A stretch of 44,522 nt of DNA from Thermodesulfobacteriaceae bacterium (lineage in GTDB: Bacteria; Desulfobacterota; Thermodesulfobacteria; Thermodesulfobacteriales; Thermodesulfobacteriaceae). This document shows, one piece after another, positions 2,972 to 9,459 of the stretch (within the stretch, counting starts at the first letter, position 1; each line of letters begins with the position of its first letter). The position numbers were made by a program, and so were the translations under genes. The stretch covers positions 1 through 44,522 of the forward strand of contig JANXAD010000013.1 in NCBI GenBank assembly GCA_025062245.1. Direction: 5' to 3'. The notes beneath the pieces are model-generated. The model searched no databases. It was not told the origin of the DNA and saw nothing but the letters and a program-made list of their open reading frames with translations.

Positions 2972-3976
2972 TTAAATTAATTTTTGTCCATATAAAAAGT
3001 TAATAATATTTATTTTTTCCTTTTCTAAGTCAAAGGAAAAATATTCAGGATAAATCCAATTAGCCATAGTTTTAAGAGAATATAGAAATTTGAGAGTCCA
3101 AAGGTCGTAAAAAAAGGTATTTTCAAATTGATAAACTGAAAAACTCTTAACAGCTTTAATAGTTCTTAATTGTTGATCGTTAAGAATTTTAGAGGGATTT
3201 AAAATTTTGCTATACCACATTATAATTACCTCAGGATTCAAGGAAAGAAGTTTTTCAAGGTTTAAACTTATAGACTCAGCTTTTATATGAGAACAGATAT
3301 TTATTCCTCCAACCATCTCAATAAGCTCATTTACTATACTTTCCTGACAAGAGGTCTGTAAAAAATTTATCTGAGCCCAACTAAAATAGACCCTTCTTTT
3401 TACTTTAATTTTTTTAGCAATTTTTCTAATTTCATTAACCTCCTTTTTAACATAATTAATCAGTTCTTCTGCCCTCCTTTCTGCACCTAAGAGCAGTCCT
3501 AAATCTCTTATTTCTTTATAAACATCTTCTATTTTACTAATAAAAACCCCATAAACAGGAATTTTCAATCTTTCGAAAGTTTGAATAGCTTCTCCTTGAT
3601 TTGCCCAAATTATAATAAGATCTGGTTTAAGAGATAAGACCTTTTCCACGTTAACGGTTTCCCAATTACCCACCGCAGGAATTTTCTTACTTTTAATCCT
3701 CCCCTCAAGAAGGGCATAATATTTAAAGGTATCTGTATAGTAAAAACCTTCTTGATATATATTATAAGGAACCCCTATGACTCTATGTCCCTGCTTTAAC
3801 ATATAAATTCCAGTTAAAGCACTTTCAATAAGACATACTACCCTTTCAGCAGGTTTTTCCAGAGTTATGGTCTTTCCTCTGAAATCTTGAACTTTAATTA
3901 AAGCCAAAGACTTAGAGGATAAAAGAAAACCTAAAAATAAGCCTAAGAGGAAAGCTCTTTTGAATATGTTTAGCAT
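2972..3976 (-). CDS. ABC transporter periplasmic substrate-binding protein (TroA/FecB-BtuF fold)
   Basis: A 334-residue protein with an N-terminal hydrophobic signal peptide (about residues 1-25, no lipobox Cys) followed by two Rossmann-like lobes typical of the iron-siderophore/cobalamin/haem binding family. Visible family features are the opening strand FRGKTITLEKPAERVVCL, the SLKPDLIIIW segment ending lobe 1, the long linking helix about residues 160-200, and SLNPEVIIMWYSK in lobe 2. It lies directly downstream of the TonB-dependent receptor on the same strand, so the pair probably moves one substrate across the outer membrane and periplasm. No permease or ATPase gene is in the window, so that half lies elsewhere. 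The substrate (iron chelate, cobalamin or other metallophore) cannot be decided from this sequence. Confidence 0.82.
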   Translation of the reverse strand: MLNIFKRAFLLGLFLGFLLSSKSLALIKVQDFRGKTITLEKPAERVVCLIESALTGIYMLKQGHRVIGVPYNIYQEGFYYTDTFKYYALLEGRIKSKKIPAVGNWETVNVEKVLSLKPDLIIIWANQGEAIQTFERLKIPVYGVFISKIEDVYKEIRDLGLLLGAERRAEELINYVKKEVNEIRKIAKKIKVKRRVYFSWAQINFLQTSCQESIVNELIEMVGGINICSHIKAESISLNLEKLLSLNPEVIIMWYSKILNPSKILNDQQLRTIKAVKSFSVYQFENTFFYDLWTLKFLYSLKTMANWIYPEYFSFDLEKEKINIINFLYGQKLI

Positions 3977-3992
3977 CTAAAAAAAGTAAGAG

Positions 3993-4014
3993 GGGGAGCT
4001 TAAAGTGCCTCCCC
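3993..4014 (-). terminator. Hairpin between TonB receptor and binding-protein genes
   Basis: A G+C-rich dyad (GGGGAG and CTCCCC arms, loop about 10 nt) in the 51-bp gap between the receptor stop and the binding-protein start. T-runs lie on both sides: the tighter one is on the plus strand (CCCCTTTTT), while on the coding minus strand the T-run follows after seven bases. It may attenuate transcription so that less binding protein than receptor is made, or simply stabilise the receptor mRNA end. Confidence 0.45.
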
Positions 4015-4027
4015 TTTTTAAGCTATT

Positions 4028-6085
4028 TTACAAATTTAATTCCCATCTTAACATAGCATTAAAACCTGGGTCCTTAAACTGCCAGGGCATTTCATATTCT
4101 TTGTCAAAAAGATTATTTATCTCAAAAATTAGATTAGAATTATATCTTTCAGTTTTAAAAAGTTGTTTTTGTAAATTTAAATTAACTGTGGTATAATCCC
4201 CAAAATCTCTTCTGTTAGTTTTATCTGTGCTGTCATAATATTTACCTACATATTGAAGATAAGCTGAAACGGTAATCTGATAGGGAAGTTTGGCAGTTAA
4301 TCCTATATTAAGGATAGTTTTTGGAACAAAGGGGATTTCACTTTTATCTTGATTTTTATCTAAGGAATTTTTAACCTTTGTATCGGTAAGCGTTAAGTTA
4401 GTAAACCACATAATTTTATCAGAAAGATAGTGTTTAAGCTCTCCCTCTATACCTTTAGCATAGGATTTTCCGGCATTAACCGACTGGGTTTGAGAAGGGT
4501 CAAGGCTTACTACATTCTCTACAATAGTATCATCTACTACATGATAAAACCCTCTTAAACTAAAATTTAGGTTATTTATTATCCACCAGTCTAAACCTAA
4601 ATCATAACTTAATCCCTTTTCAGGTTTAAGATTAGGGTTAGGAAGTTGCCCGTGTTTCCCAGGAATTCCTTTATCAGAAGCTTTTATAGTTCCCCCTACT
4701 GACTTAGCCGAGGGGACAAGAAAGCTTGAACCAAAATTAGCAAAAAAACCTAATTTTTCAGATATATTATACCTTGCTCCTACACTCCAAAGTACCTTAT
4801 CCCAAGATTTAGAACCTACCTCTGGTATAACACCTCCTATGAGCTTGTATTTATGTTTGGTATAGTTATATCTTAACCCTGCTCTTAAAACCCATTTATC
4901 TATAATTACCTTTTCTTGAACATAAATCCCCCAATTTCTTGCCTTTACATCATTCCCTTTACTTCTTATACCTTCCTTTTTAGCATAGGTTTCATAAGTA
5001 GAAAACTGAGTATCTATACCTGCCGTAAGAATACTTTTTCCCCAATGTTTGAAGTTGAAGGAAACATCAAGAGGAAATAGGTTTTGTTTAACTCCATCCT
5101 TTTCTCTAAGAGCTAAACTCTGGGGATAATAATCTTCCTCCCAAGATCTGTGATAGTAACGATATCCTCCCTTGAGGTTTAAAATTAAGTTTTTATTCAA
5201 AAAAGGAGCAGAAAAATTTAAATTTACTATATCATACTGATGGTCGTATTCTCTGTTAGGTCTTCCTGTATCGCCTCTATGTTGAGTATGATGCACAAAA
5301 AGAGAGGCCTTAATATCAGGAGTAAAAAAATAGGTAGTCTTAAAGTATCCTTTAAACTTTCTATACTCAGGGTCATCAAGCATATTAAGCCAAGAAGGTT
5401 TGGTTCCATAGTTAGTATAATCGGACTGCTCATAATTGGCTCCTAAGAAAAAGTTGAGAGGACCAGCTGCTCCTTCATGATAAACCCTTCCGTTTATGGT
5501 CTCCCAAGTTCCATATCCCAGAGAAATTTTAGTTAAGGGAACTATAATTTTCTCTTTAGTAATAAGATTTGTTATACCTGCCAGAGGACTTTCATTCCCA
5601 GCAAAATCCATAGTCATATAATTAGGATAAAGAACTGAAGCTGGACCTCGATGAACCTCCACTCTATCAAGATATAGAAAGTCAAGACTCATAGGATCAA
5701 CAAAAGAGTCTATGGGTAATCCATCAAGAAGCCAACTATTATATTTTGGGCCTAATCCTCCATAGGATCCCCAGTTAGCGTCATTACGAGAAAGAGGATT
5801 TACAAAATTTCCAGGAAGATATTTGATAAGTTCAGATAGATTTCTATTAGGTAAATTAAGATTCTCTATTTCACTTTTCTCAACTACATCAGTCTTATGG
5901 GTCTGTTCTTGAGGGGGTTGTTCAATTTTAGACTCGGTAATAGTTACCTTTTCAACTAATATTTCCTTCATTTCAGCTGTTTTTTGAACTTCAGAAACCT
6001 GTTCTTTAGCATAAGCTGAAATTCCTAAGTCTAAATTTGCTATAAATCCTAAAATTGAAAAACTTATAAAATACCTTTTTTTCAT
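4028..6085 (-). CDS. TonB-dependent outer-membrane receptor
   Basis: A 685-residue protein with a Sec signal peptide (cleavage likely after AYA, residues 24-26). A plug domain follows (about 60-190) with NLSELIKYLPGNFVNPLSRN, the LLDGLPID turn and VEVHRGPASVLYP, all standard plug landmarks. The rest is a 22-strand-type barrel with alternating aromatic strands, ending in NLFDKEYEMP and a terminal Trp/Leu strand. Such receptors import scarce chelates using energy from TonB-ExbBD. No TonB box is obvious; the stretch after the signal (EILVEKVTITES) is the best candidate. A good Shine-Dalgarno (AAAGGAGGAT) precedes the ATG, and a TTGACA/TATAAA promoter lies just upstream. The substrate is not identifiable by eye. 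The binding-protein gene follows in the same direction. Confidence 0.92.
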   Translation of the reverse strand: MKKRYFISFSILGFIANLDLGISAYAKEQVSEVQKTAEMKEILVEKVTITESKIEQPPQEQTHKTDVVEKSEIENLNLPNRNLSELIKYLPGNFVNPLSRNDANWGSYGGLGPKYNSWLLDGLPIDSFVDPMSLDFLYLDRVEVHRGPASVLYPNYMTMDFAGNESPLAGITNLITKEKIIVPLTKISLGYGTWETINGRVYHEGAAGPLNFFLGANYEQSDYTNYGTKPSWLNMLDDPEYRKFKGYFKTTYFFTPDIKASLFVHHTQHRGDTGRPNREYDHQYDIVNLNFSAPFLNKNLILNLKGGYRYYHRSWEEDYYPQSLALREKDGVKQNLFPLDVSFNFKHWGKSILTAGIDTQFSTYETYAKKEGIRSKGNDVKARNWGIYVQEKVIIDKWVLRAGLRYNYTKHKYKLIGGVIPEVGSKSWDKVLWSVGARYNISEKLGFFANFGSSFLVPSAKSVGGTIKASDKGIPGKHGQLPNPNLKPEKGLSYDLGLDWWIINNLNFSLRGFYHVVDDTIVENVVSLDPSQTQSVNAGKSYAKGIEGELKHYLSDKIMWFTNLTLTDTKVKNSLDKNQDKSEIPFVPKTILNIGLTAKLPYQITVSAYLQYVGKYYDSTDKTNRRDFGDYTTVNLNLQKQLFKTERYNSNLIFEINNLFDKEYEMPWQFKDPGFNAMLRWELNL

Positions 6086-6126
6086 CTTATCCTCCTTTTT
6101 TAATATTTTTAAAAATTTTTTAAAAG

Positions 6127-6154
6127 TTTATAATTTAAAATTTAAAAATGTCAA
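6127..6154 (-). promoter_or_regulatory. Sigma70-type promoter of the TonB receptor gene
   Basis: On the minus strand there is a perfect -35 TTGACA (6149-6154) and a -10 TATAAA (6127-6132) separated by 16 bp, giving a leader of about 35 nt. A 7-5-7 inverted repeat (6153-6171, arms AATAGTT/AACTATT) sits immediately upstream of, and just overlaps, the -35 box. It could be an operator or activator site. The leader is too short to hold a cobalamin riboswitch. Confidence 0.55.
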
Positions 6155-6797
6155 TAGTTATTGAAACTATTTGAAAATTTATATTCACTAATAGATTAAT
6201 TGCTTACTTCTTTGAATAGGAGTAGTTTTACCCCCTTGGTGAAAGGTTTTGTAATTCTTAACCTCTCACATTTTTCAAACAGTCTTAGAGAATAAAAAAT
6301 GCATAGGTTCGGTCTCTTTCGGGAAAATAAAAATCTATTTATATTTTTCTATCTCACCTAATCTTACTAAAGAGGCTCAAAGATTAGAAAGACTAAGCTA
6401 CTAAATCTGCCTTGGGAGTTTCAAAGACCGCTATGTATAGAAAAAAGAAGAAGAGACAGAGGCTTTTAAGAGCTTAGGTAGTGGAATTTATTTTACGGTT
6501 TAGAAAAGAAGAGACTTCGGTTAGGAAAGGTAAAGTTGAAAAAGGTATTTCAAGGTAATAGTTAGGTAAAAAGTTAGAAAGAAACTTGGAGGAGGATTTT
6601 ATAGGACATTAGGGAGGGGAAGGTTTTTTGAAGATTTAGAGGCCTTAAACAGAGAATTAATAGATCATTTGATATGGTATAATGGGAAGAGGGGCCCCAT
6701 GACTTAGATAATAAGCCAACTTTAAGATGGTATGGGGAAGAATATAAAAAATAACACGTTGTCCCAAAAACCTATGGTCTCATACAAGATATTGACA
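6149..6797 (+). pseudogene. Decayed IS element with DDE/rve transposase remnant (copy 1)
   Basis: This covers most of the 785-bp gap between the TonB receptor and hemerythrin genes, and no intact frame exists in it. Plus-strand translation across several frames still shows the end of an integrase-core transposase: at about 6590-6720 a run reads like GRGRFFEDLEALNREL, then IDHLIWYNGKR, matching the conserved C-terminus of rve-type transposases, followed by frameshifts and stops. The edges may be TGTCAATA (6149-6156) and its inverted copy TATTGACA (6790-6797), an 8-bp perfect inverted match. The DNA from 6290 on resembles the relics at about 20.02 kb and 30.41 kb. Coordinates of the left edge are inferred. 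Confidence 0.6.
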
Positions 6798-6820
6798 AAA
6801 ACTCGAAACAATTTTATAAT
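6792..6820 (+). promoter_or_regulatory. Perfect consensus sigma70 promoter of bacteriohemerythrin
   Basis: TTGACA (6792-6797), exactly 17 bp, then TATAAT (6815-6820): a complete match to the consensus. The -35 box coincides with the right edge of the transposase relic, while the -10 box is outside it. Predicted initiation is near 6827, giving a leader of about 44 nt with AAAGGAGG before the hemerythrin ATG at 6871. Confidence 0.75.
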
Positions 6821-6870
6821 GCTAAATTATTAAAAAATACTAAAATGACAAAAGTTAAAGGAGGATTTAA

Positions 6871-7278
6871 ATGGCTTATTTTGATTGGAATAGTAATATT
6901 ATTCTTGGTATTGAAGAAATTGATGCCCAACACCGTGGTTTAGTAGACCTAATAAATGAATTACACTCTGCGATGAAACAAGGTAAAGGACAAACTATCT
7001 TGGATGAAATTTTATTAAAACTAAAGGATTACATCAATTTTCACTTTGATTTTGAGGAAAGTCTTTTAAAAAAGTATAATTATCCTGAATTTAACTCTCA
7101 TAAACAGCAACATACCTTATTTATAAACAAAATAAAAGATTTTGAAGAAAGAAGGAGTAAAGGACAGGTAGCACTGACTATAGAATTACTCTCCTTTTTA
7201 AAGGATTGGCTAACTCATCATATTATGAATATAGATAAAAAATATGTTAATTTTCTTTTACCCAAATTAAAAGCTTAA
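6871..7278 (+). CDS. Bacteriohemerythrin (O2-binding diiron protein)
   Basis: A 135-residue single-domain hemerythrin. The full diiron ligand set is present: H21, H58, E62 (HFDFEE), H77, H81 (HKQQH) and H117/D122 (HIMNID). The N-terminal DWNSNIILGIEEIDAQH is the family opening. Cytoplasmic bacteriohemerythrins bind O2 reversibly; in anaerobes they are thought to scavenge, store or sense it. The Shine-Dalgarno is strong (AAAGGAGG) and the promoter is a perfect consensus, so high expression is likely. It is monocistronic: the next gene is on the other strand 139 bp away. Confidence 0.95.
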   Translation: MAYFDWNSNIILGIEEIDAQHRGLVDLINELHSAMKQGKGQTILDEILLKLKDYINFHFDFEESLLKKYNYPEFNSHKQQHTLFINKIKDFEERRSKGQVALTIELLSFLKDWLTHHIMNIDKKYVNFLLPKLKA

Positions 7279-7417
7279 TTTAAAAATTAAAAATTTGTTA
7301 AGTTACTTAAAAGGACCTAAGGTTCTGAGAGGCAGATTTTTGTTTCCATTTTAAATAAAAACTACTTGTAAGGGTCACTCAAAACCGATAAATTTTATTC
7401 AGACTGTCTCCTTTTCC

Positions 7418-8356
7418 CTATCGATAAATGCAGATACAACAATTTCTTCCCCTTTTTTTAGCCTCATACAAGGCTTCATCTGCTCTTTTCAAAAAGAGCT
7501 TAAAATTGTCTAAGGGTGAAAACTCCGTTATACCAAAACTTGCGGTTATCTTTTCTCTTATCCTTTTAAATTGCCTTTTCTCTATAGTTTGTCTTAATCT
7601 TTCAGACATTTTGTAAGCTGCCTCCATATTCGTATGAGGTAAGAGTAATACAAATTCTTCTCCTCCCAGTCTTGCAAAAAGGTCTTCTTGTCTTATGGAT
7701 TTCTTAATCACCTTAGTGATGCTCTTTAAAACATAATCACCAGTTTCATGTCCATAGGTATCGTTTATTTTTTTGAAGTAATCTATATCTATCATAACTA
7801 AGGAAAGAGGAAGATTATGTCTTTTAGCTAAGGAAATTTCTCTTTTTAAAATTTTGAGAAAGGCTCTTCTATTTAAAATTCCTGTTAAAGGGTCGGTATT
7901 ATTAATTTTTTTAATCGTCTTTAAAGCCTCTGAAAGTTGAACATTTTTTTTAGCTAATTCTCTGGTGATATTAACTAATTGCTCGTTAAGTTTGGAAAGT
8001 TTTAGTATTAATTCACTATAAGTAAGACGATAGGGTTCTAAAATCAAAAGATATTTGTCTTCTAATTTTACTCTTACTCCTTTAAGCACTATTTCCATTT
8101 TATCTTTGCCTTTTAGGATAAGTTCGATGAGATCTAAGGAAGTTTGCCCAAGATTTTCCTTAGAAACTCCGATTAAAAGATTTCTTAAATCAGAGTTAAG
8201 AGGTTTTTCCTCTAAGCCTAAAATTTCTTTCAATCCTTCGTTAGAATCAATTATTTTATAGTTTTCATCTACTAAGACTATAATTAAATTTTTTAGAACC
8301 GATAAACTATTAAAAATTAACTCAGGATATTTTTTAAATAAAGAATTTATAGTCAT
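7418..8356 (-). CDS. Diguanylate cyclase with N-terminal PAS-like sensor
   Basis: 312 residues. Residues about 15-110 look like a PAS-type fold (IIVLVDENYKIIDSNEGLKEILGLEE, ending VKLEDKYLLILEPYR). A coiled-coil linker (about 113-150) joins it to a GGDEF domain starting at NNTDPLTGILNRR. The active-site loop is GGEEF (231-235), and the RxxD inhibitory site (R222-D225) lies exactly five residues before it, so an active, product-inhibited c-di-GMP synthase is expected. The start overlaps the end of the cobalamin-binding protein gene by 4 bp (ATGA), so the two are translationally coupled. The PAS-like domain may be where the B12 protein signals; that is inference. Confidence 0.93.
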   Translation of the reverse strand: MTINSLFKKYPELIFNSLSVLKNLIIVLVDENYKIIDSNEGLKEILGLEEKPLNSDLRNLLIGVSKENLGQTSLDLIELILKGKDKMEIVLKGVRVKLEDKYLLILEPYRLTYSELILKLSKLNEQLVNITRELAKKNVQLSEALKTIKKINNTDPLTGILNRRAFLKILKREISLAKRHNLPLSLVMIDIDYFKKINDTYGHETGDYVLKSITKVIKKSIRQEDLFARLGGEEFVLLLPHTNMEAAYKMSERLRQTIEKRQFKRIREKITASFGITEFSPLDNFKLFLKRADEALYEAKKRGRNCCICIYR

Positions 8357-9459
8357 GAAGAGCTTTTTAGAAATTTAGCAATTTCTACCGCCTTTTTAGC
8401 ATCAGAGGCCCAAAAATCAGCTCCCAACTTAAGATAAACTTCAGGAAAAAGATTAAAAAGCAGACCTCCTACCATTATCTTTAGGGAAATACCTTTAAGA
8501 CTTCTAATTTTACTTATTAATTTTTCAGTTCTTTCAAGATTAAAAGGCATAGTAACTGATATTCCTATAAGTTTAGGCTTGATTTTTTTAACCAGTTTAA
8601 GAACTTCATCCTCTGGAACATTAGCTCCTAAATAATAAACATCCCAACCATCCATCTCAAGTAAATCTGCTACCATTCTCCCTCCTAATTCGTGATATTC
8701 ATTGGGAGAAGAAGTAATTATAGCTTTAGCTTGGGCTTTAGTTTTATTTTTAGGAAAGTAAGTATAAATATTGGCCATCACTCTCCCTACTATAGAGGTT
8801 GCAAGATGTTCTTCAGCTACAGAAATTTTCCCCTTTTCCCATAGACTTCCTATTTCATAAAGAGCTGGTTGAAGAATTTTTAAATAAAAATTTTCAAGAT
8901 CTTGAGGAGATTTAACTAATCTATTGGCAAACTTTACTGCAGAGTTAAAATCAGCTCTTAAAAGGTGAGATAAAAATCTTTCCTTTTTGATTTCCCAATT
9001 CCTTTCTAAGGTTATTTTGAATTCATCTTGTTTTTGAGATAATTCAATCATTTCTTCATGCTTTTCTATCAACCACTCATAAGTCCTGTTTATCTCTTTA
9101 GCAGAGGAACTGGGAAGAAAATTCTCTACTGCCCTTTTCCAAGTATGTAATTCTACGAGAAAATAATCATAGGAAAAGCCATGATTAGAATAGGCTTTAT
9201 AAACCCATGGAACCATTTTTACAAGCATCTCAAAAAGGGAGTATTTAAATACATTAGCCATAAAATTGGCATGGTTAGTGTGATTGTCATACATTATCTG
9301 TAAAGAATTAAAACCTATTAAGGTTAAAAGGTCAGACCTCTTAGTCATCTCTTGGTTAACGAAGTTTAGCATAAAAGGTTTATTTTCTTCGTAATCCTTA
9401 GCTGCCTGAGGACTAACTTTAAGCTTTTCCTTAGCTTCCTTAATTAGTTCCTCTATCAT
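8353..9459 (-). CDS. Cobalamin-binding protein with CarH-type photoreceptor signature, no DNA-binding domain
   Basis: 368 residues. The C-terminal half has the two-part B12 module of CarH/methionine synthase: a four-helix cap (about 165-235) and a Rossmann B12 domain (about 243-365). In the B12 domain ExHxxG (E254, H256, G259) supplies the cobalt-ligating His, followed by SVTM and GG. The cap carries W207-x9-E217-H218, the Wx9EH motif known from the CarH adenosylcobalamin photoreceptors; the W-to-His ligand spacing is 49 residues, close to CarH. The N-terminal MerR DNA-binding domain of CarH is absent. Instead residues 25-145 form an alpha-helical region rich in aromatics and His (HTNHANF, PWVYKAYSNHGFSYDYF), which I do not recognise. 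It is coupled to the cyclase (ATGA overlap) and overlaps the upstream radical SAM gene by 20 bp. A methyltransferase corrinoid protein is the alternative, but no methyltransferase is nearby. Confidence 0.88.
   Translation of the reverse strand: MIEELIKEAKEKLKVSPQAAKDYEENKPFMLNFVNQEMTKRSDLLTLIGFNSLQIMYDNHTNHANFMANVFKYSLFEMLVKMVPWVYKAYSNHGFSYDYFLVELHTWKRAVENFLPSSSAKEINRTYEWLIEKHEEMIELSQKQDEFKITLERNWEIKKERFLSHLLRADFNSAVKFANRLVKSPQDLENFYLKILQPALYEIGSLWEKGKISVAEEHLATSIVGRVMANIYTYFPKNKTKAQAKAIITSSPNEYHELGGRMVADLLEMDGWDVYYLGANVPEDEVLKLVKKIKPKLIGISVTMPFNLERTEKLISKIRSLKGISLKIMVGGLLFNLFPEVYLKLGADFWASDAKKAVEIAKFLKSSS

Follow-up and report, generated by a model that had tools for sequence, protein, structure and literature searches.

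The window, a contig of 44,522 nucleotides from a Thermodesulfobacteriaceae bacterium (JANXAD010000013.1) analysed over its whole length, carries two overlapping genes on its minus strand. The upstream gene (8353-9459) encodes a 368-residue globin and cobalamin-binding protein, hereafter the receptor, assigned from the open reading frame (ORF) list, Pfam and AlphaFold2. The downstream gene (7418-8356; ORF list and Pfam) encodes a 312-residue partner with a PAS-like domain, a coil and a GGDEF diguanylate cyclase (DGC) domain. The receptor stop and the cyclase start share the four bases ATGA at 8353-8356, which confirms the 4-bp gene overlap reported in the initial annotation. Judging from sequence, we propose, with a probability of about 0.62, that the pair would act as a two-protein sensor switch, in which an adenosylcobalamin (AdoCbl) receptor contacts the PAS/coil region of its partner and sets the output of cyclic di-GMP (c-di-GMP).

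The cobalamin module consists of a helical cap domain (PF02607, E = 7.9e-15; residues 160-230, window positions 8770-8982) and a Rossmann B12-binding domain (PF02310, E = 2.7e-21; residues 245-357, 8389-8727), both, like all features of the two genes, on the minus strand. The classic B12 motif, given in the available part of PMC9304148 as D/ExHx2G-x41-SxT/V-x22-27-GG, is present with exact spacing as E254-x-H256-x-x-G259, S301-x-T303 and G331-G332, H256 (8692-8694) being the predicted lower cobalt ligand. Alignment A4 holds 31 rows, the window receptor and 30 relatives (namely L051-L083 minus L069, L070, L072 and L081, plus L087), and every one of them has W207 (8839-8841), E217-H218 (8806-8811) and H256, which bears out the combination of W207-x9-E217-H218 with ExHxxG that had been read from the single sequence. 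AlphaFold2 modelled the whole receptor with a predicted local distance difference test score (pLDDT) of 95.5, and Foldseek placed photocobilins, CtMerR and CarH on top of the matches to this model, via the cobalamin part. Among PDB entries, photocobilins (the DGC-linked AbDPcob among them) and the photoreceptor CtMerR come closest in sequence and in fold, all above methyltransferase corrinoid proteins. Sequence and model point to a mode of AdoCbl binding like that of CarH and the photocobilins. According to the accessible text of PMC11796333, the residue after the tryptophan is His in CarH, where it provides the bis-His light state, Gln in SasPcob and Tyr in AbDPcob. It is Glu (E208) in the receptor, and a bis-His light state would not be expected. 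The SignatureFinder light signature described there requires GxxW, EH, GxxH and GxxxP all to be present; GxxW, EH and GxxxP occur in the receptor, which thus lacks the full signature.

The N-terminal domain (residues 1-145, 9025-9459) had been described as unrecognised, and Pfam indeed returned nothing significant for it, as did its profile against PDB sequences (best E = 0.059). Its fold is nevertheless that of a globin. The AlphaFold2 model of residues 1-151 alone is all-helical with a pLDDT of 96.4, and the best 50 of its 403 Foldseek matches are all phycobiliprotein or phycobilisome structures, smURFP or globin-coupled sensors (DosC, BpeGReg, Geobacter), with probabilities of 0.98-1.00 and query template-modelling (TM) scores of 0.51-0.65. 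No match to a MerR DNA-binding domain was found in the receptor by Pfam up to E = 1, and the NCBIfam CarH equivalog (TransRegCarH) scored 72.7 bits, in the cobalamin region only, against a cut-off of 400. Since the N-terminus has a globin fold and the CarH cut-off is missed, we reject the idea that the receptor is a CarH that lost its DNA-binding domain; what stands of the earlier CarH-type assignment is a cobalamin receptor of the AdoCbl-sensing type, without the domain replacement. A cobalamin module joined to a globin-fold domain, as found here, is one criterion for photocobilins, and the receptor is a probable globin-first relative of that group.

The residues conserved in the globin-fold domain are N59-H60-x2-H63, W85, Y90, F95, Y99 and W107. 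Profile A6, built from 31 N-terminal domains, was compared by hhalign with photoglobin or photoglobin-like sets. It matched nine such sequences at 91.95% probability over 111 columns, of which seven rows (one from Azospirillum, L040-L044 and L087) are N-terminal domains of cobalamin proteins called photoglobin by eye from a common pattern, and two are Streptomyces sequences verified solely via their match to SasPcob. Six N-terminal photoglobin-like sequences gave 84.6%, and the thin profile of just the two verified Streptomyces photoglobins gave 7.9%; controls (the cobalamin helix bundle, PAS+coil, kinase and GGDEF) gave 0.36% or less. Taken with the models and the conservation pattern, these profile scores suggest that the domain is probably photoglobin-like. 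The photoglobin family, which Schneider and colleagues reportedly described in CSBJ in 2022, is said to comprise globins that lack heme and are linked to B12-binding domains and to signalling genes. The window clade diverges from it in being aromatic-rich and in its N59-H60-x2-H63 motif; its match is 92% to the nine-sequence set and 7.9% to the verified pair.

Heme globins keep their proximal His in helix F. None of the 31 rows has a His at residues 78-90 of helix F, which makes ordinary heme ligation by this domain unlikely; His is common just past the helix, at residue 91 in 16 rows and at residue 93 in 20, so that a heme ligand could still come from there. In the hhalign alignment W85 (31/31 rows) falls on Trp296 of SasPcob, and N59, which is Asn in 29/31 rows, on Asp270, the bilin ligand (SasPcob numbering was set by hand from PDB alignments, chain index 55 being Trp61 and hence 290 Trp296 and 264 Asp270). 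The Asp is also missing from AbPcob, a known photocobilin with His in that column according to the available text of PMC10979010. The globin might itself be the real input, taking up heme, a bilin or another ligand, with the cobalamin domain secondary, as in globin-coupled DGCs. Consistent with such an input are the sensor domains of DosC, BpeGReg and Geobacter among the Foldseek matches, H60 in 31/31 and H63 in 30/31 rows, and the frequent His at residues 91 and 93, on account of which we raised its odds slightly. We still hold it to be unlikely, given the helix F devoid of His at residues 78-90, the Asn at the Asp270 equivalent, and the lack of the heme oxygenase family PF01126 in a panel of 14 genomes described below; a heme-globin sensor as the main input is a weakened candidate.

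In the partner, the GGDEF catalytic domain (residues 153-305, 7442-7900; Pfam E = 2.5e-49) contains by pattern the active-site motif GGEEF (residues 231-235, 7652-7666) and, five residues before it, the inhibitory-site RxxD motif as RQED (residues 222-225, 7682-7693), so both sites are intact, as first annotated. A GGEEF-type motif and RxxD occur together in 17 of the 18 DGC partners listed, the window included, the exception being GGEEL at L073. Ahead of the catalytic domain lies a coil, delimited by eye at about residues 113-152 (7901-8020) and conserved in partners, and ahead of the coil a PAS-like domain at about residues 12-110 (8027-8323), the proposed docking site, recognised by a weak Pfam match and by a model of the partners. 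Among ten other DGC partners scanned by Pfam, six have some PAS match up to E = 0.05, and one, L051, passes the curated cut-off (PAS_8); no PAS match up to E = 0.05 was found by Pfam in the partners of L055, L075 and L083 or in that of Ilyobacter.

To place the pair in its family, named genomes were surveyed with a seven-sequence alignment, which gave 89 relatives, of which 80 loci were kept. A profile script found globin and cobalamin domains in one ORF at 31 of these and as separate ORFs at 8 (one of which, L070, may be a frameshift), a globin only at 2, and a cobalamin domain only at 39. An adjoining partner was defined as a downstream gene on the same strand that starts no more than 100 bp beyond the receptor end. 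Such a signalling partner is present at 26 of the 29 assessable fused loci (25 by script, plus a kinase at L079 by Pfam), L054 and L072 stopping at a contig edge. Sorted by output, the partners are 16 GGDEF proteins, 6 histidine kinases (L079 among them), 3 CxxC-tail proteins and 1 protein cut off within its PAS domain (L057). Such a gene follows 11 of the 333 other genes on loci L051-L101 (GGDEF in 3 of the 11), and against this background the pairing is not chance. The ORF starts are mechanical, so some overlaps, such as that of L062, are overdrawn, and the loci are not fully independent, as L060 and L069 belong to a single bin. The pairing recurs in loci titled with several phyla, and a plasmid of Ilyobacter polytropus DSM 2926 has a fused gene that overlaps a GGDEF gene by 20 bp (ILYOP_RS12675/RS15340).

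Receptors encoded by two genes keep similar company. A histidine kinase gene is found at 7 of the 8 split loci, downstream at 6 and between the globin and cobalamin genes at L090, and at L070 a coil-GGDEF ORF lies 209 bp beyond; in genome G254 (L045) the order is globin gene, DGC, cobalamin gene. A kinase is next door at 9 of the 39 cobalamin-only loci. One of them, L087 on a Lokiarchaeota contig, has at 5845-8524 a gene for a globin-cobalamin receptor that overlaps one for a histidine kinase, the globin having been missed by the profile script. In a search across the phylum, 191 of 297 genomes had some match at 1e-5, nearly always with the cobalamin part among the matches listed. Two loci have unusual ORFs: at L081 the receptor and the end of a GGDEF domain lie in a single ORF, through a deletion or an assembly error, and at L094 of Geofilum rubicundum (4639-6621) a 660-residue ORF with a mechanical start has kinase and cobalamin-domain matches and is a possible fusion.

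This neighbourhood survey also bears on a refuting condition named in the initial annotation, homologues lying beside corrinoid methyltransferases, and on the reading in which the receptor would be a methyltransferase-system corrinoid protein placed near a DGC by coincidence. NCBIfam corrinoid-protein models do match the receptor, far below cut-off (MtbC, 55 against 350 bits). With W-x9-EH invariant, signalling partners at 26 of 29 loci and no corrinoid methyltransferase among the downstream neighbours typed, we reject that assignment on motif and neighbourhood and regard it as the least probable of those considered.

The partners share more than their position. A hidden Markov model (HMM) of the front end was built from 11 cyclase N-termini (PAS+coil) and later split into PAS and coil parts, with a limit of 1e-3. 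The joint model finds kinase partners (L063, 1.7e-24; L064, 9.2e-24; L066, 1.8e-22; L078, 1e-18) and CxxC-tail partners (L068, 5.9e-25; L067, 5e-24), with weaker matches elsewhere, for example at L087 (2.7e-5). The PAS or the coil part is matched by 24 of the 26 partners, nine of the 24 being members of the training set, and by 15 of the 17 partners outside that set. The PAS part alone matches L063 (1.4e-16), L064 (3.5e-15), L067 (4e-13) and L068 (2.3e-10), and the coil is the more general part of the model. Of the split-locus kinases, 6 of 7 match the joint model (8.4e-10 to 1.3e-4), L100 being the exception. Non-partners are matched as well, for example L079:288-4088 (PAS part, 8e-6) and L040:2-1459 (2.6e-4). 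One front end thus precedes different outputs. The third of these outputs, a C-terminal tail of the form CxxC...GICPxC, was seen at L067 (7092-7751), L068 (7096-7728), L080 (7026-7658) and L046 (9238-9846), and no Pfam family was found in it (three tails scanned at E = 0.001, one at 0.01).

Pairwise distances among receptors correlate with those among partners, with r = 0.865 for PAS+coil and 0.902 for GGDEF (17 pairs; none of 2000 permutations reached such values). As the correlation is just as strong for GGDEF, this demonstrates co-inheritance and not contact, and co-inheritance alone could explain it. That the two genes are merely co-transcribed, their proteins never interacting, is very improbable, as the pairing is recurrent, outputs are swapped behind a common front end, and the pairing persists where the receptor is two genes.

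In the switch that we propose, the cobalamin module would bind AdoCbl with H256 beneath the cobalt and with W207, E217 and H218 surrounding the adenosyl group. If that group were lost or absent, through green light, altered AdoCbl supply or redox, the cap helix and the oligomer would shift. The receptor would touch the DGC from the downstream gene at its PAS-like domain and coil, and the coil would set the GGDEF dimer geometry and thereby c-di-GMP synthesis, which would be subject to feedback through RxxD. The most likely role of the globin domain is to cover the corrin and provide a docking surface. There is precedent for action in trans. As far as the available text of PMC10979010 goes, the DGC activity of AbDPcob is lowered by AdoCbl and raised over 10-fold by light, and separate light-state photocobilins activate an isolated DGC domain in vitro. 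Together with the recurrent pairing and the 24 of 26 partners on one PAS/coil model, this supports as likely the initial suggestion that the receptor acts on the DGC by protein contact. SasPcob without bilin acted with the opposite sign (PMC10979010), so the direction of control is not predictable here. By plan, the pair can be likened to the RsbQ-PAS module, for which the accessible part of PMC3183031 describes RsbQ and PAS-coil proteins from adjacent genes, with phosphatase, kinase or DGC outputs and evidence for direct PAS contact. In both, an adjacent sensor gene accompanies a PAS-coil protein with interchangeable outputs, of which the window family has three types; the sensor is an alpha/beta hydrolase there and a B12-globin protein here.

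The signal was considered through a heme-oxygenase panel of 14 genomes. A fused receptor is encoded in nine of them, decayed in one case, split genes in G254 and G036, and more distant relatives in G071, G209 and G034. PF01126 was found in 0/14, heme oxygenases outside that family not having been searched, and HutW-type radical S-adenosylmethionine (SAM) proteins, a means of anaerobic bilin supply, were found above cut-off in 0/14; weaker HutW-type matches occur in 14/14 panel and 14/14 control genomes and are hence unspecific. With PF01126 absent from all 14, the usual route to a bilin antenna is missing, and a bilin ligand is unlikely in hosts of the globin-first receptor. Smithella, Syntrophales, Thermodesulfovibrio and Halanaerobium, groups named among the hosts, are anaerobes.

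Light is a plausible natural signal, and AdoCbl or redox sensing is a serious rival to it. Under that rival the two-protein switch would be identical in mechanism and would differ in its signal alone, which would be AdoCbl or corrinoid supply, oxygen or redox chemistry at the cobalt, with light sensitivity a side effect. The panel result on PF01126 and the anaerobic life of many hosts, judged by name, speak for it, as does the ligand sensing built into AbDPcob, whose DGC activity is lower with AdoCbl alone than in the apo form (available text of PMC10979010). AdoCbl held in such a mode would, however, be expected to be photolabile, and surface habitats may receive light; we put a non-light signal somewhat short of even odds. 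More tentative, and on balance doubtful, is a wider version: a bipartite system, widespread and for the most part anaerobic, that joins a bilin-free globin-B12 receptor to a common PAS-coil adaptor with GGDEF, kinase or CxxC-tail outputs, and in which AdoCbl reports a non-light cue such as cofactor supply, oxygen or radical chemistry. If it were true, an older dark sensor would later have been put to use in B12 photoreception.

Several observations weigh against the proposed switch, or against its sensing of light. An adjacent partner is absent at 3 of the 29 fused loci (L074, L076 and L082), although at L082 a GGDEF gene lies 566 bp further on. The kinases of L077 and L079 are unmatched by the PAS/coil model. 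In the window cyclase itself, Pfam support for the PAS domain is weak (PAS_9, E = 0.098), and the PAS-like N-terminus of the initial annotation stands to that extent. The GxxH element of the light signature reads N253xxH256 in the receptor, position 253 being Gly in 5/31 rows and Asn in 24/31. The Foldseek E-values of the N-terminal domain are 0.07 or higher, and no photocobilin is among its best 50 of 403 matches, so the fold is demonstrated and close kinship is not. At 1e-20 the receptor occurs in 3 of 14 genomes of the genus, namely its own, G299 (61%, with no stops) and G227 (broken by stops, and thus decayed), and the gene is therefore dispensable. Upstream of the G299 copy lies a GGDEF gene, and the stretch read has none downstream. 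There (L136, 629-2598), base 1498 is both the end of a GGDEF ORF that looks response-regulator-like by eye and the likely start of the receptor, and the next ORF downstream of the receptor is on the opposite strand.

Compared with the photocobilins (SasPcob, 8j2w/8j2x; AbDPcob, 8j2y), the receptor is alike in its W-x9-EH cobalamin module, its globin and its DGC output. It differs in that the globin is N-terminal here and C-terminal there, in having Asn59 in place of the bilin-ligand Asp, in a host genome without PF01126 heme oxygenase, and in a DGC that is encoded by a separate gene with a PAS-like/coil front end, AbDPcob being DGC-linked. The MerR-type repressors CarH and LitR have the same cobalamin fold and AdoCbl-contact residues, but they have a MerR domain, which the receptor lacks, and His after the tryptophan in place of Glu. 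The globin-coupled DGCs DosC and BpeGReg place the same globin fold upstream of c-di-GMP synthesis; here cyclase and globin are on different proteins, and helix F has no His at residues 78-90.

The literature already covers photocobilins, their fusions to DGCs and the alternative domain order, and forms with a C-terminal AdoCbl domain exist (PMC10979010, available text); B12-binding and globin genes have been noted in one cluster in the accessible part of PMC10151467. A word search of the main text of a 2022 review of c-di-GMP sensing found no mention of cobalamin, B12 or CarH, and no description of the trans receptor-partner arrangement was found in the literature searched, a partial search on which priority is not claimed. 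The apparent novelty lies in the divergent branch of globins and in its repeated pairing, in trans, with a PAS-coil partner whose output varies. Such a family would offer naturally paired receptors and enzymes for controlling c-di-GMP in trans through B12, instead of fusions or artificial mixtures. It looks like a reusable two-part sensing module whose relatives retain the pairing and swap the enzyme, and one adaptor with swappable outputs could serve in the engineering of light or B12 control. It also makes testable whether the B12 'photoreceptor' modules of anaerobes respond to light, and Ilyobacter polytropus DSM 2926 is a named strain that has the pair.

In a tree of the 31 rows, two sequences from Nitrospirota and two from Thermodesulfobacteriota form a group with the window receptor (100/100). 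The Thermodesulfobacteriota rows require at least 6 label changes on starred branches, which is suggestive of transfer but no proof of it, the group label being taken from submitters' titles and hardly clustered (157/500 shuffles as low).

Around the pair, the ORF preceding the receptor matches TIGR03916 above cut-off and overlaps it by 20 bp (9440-9459), so the transcription unit may extend further. A bacteriohemerythrin gene (6871-7278) is convergent with the cyclase gene and transcribed separately; it is a possible oxygen link. Beyond it lie a TonB-dependent receptor (4028-6085) and, by eye, a substrate-binding-like protein (2972-3976), a region (2972-6085) in which the B12-receptor model scored 69.9 bits against a cut-off of 599.7. 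No cobalamin riboswitch was found in the window at gathering score, the RNA matches being two transfer RNAs only. The bacterium's own genome of 1.63 Mb has one receptor match at E = 0.01 and 15 GGDEF matches, as well as one BtuR cob(I)alamin adenosyltransferase, which counts in favour of the AdoCbl switch. On contig C55 of that genome (L131, 1-3507), the BtuR gene overlaps a gene that is radical-SAM-like by eye and begins 28 bp past a GGDEF gene with membrane and PAS parts, also by eye, an adjacency that is possibly a second link between cobalamin and c-di-GMP.

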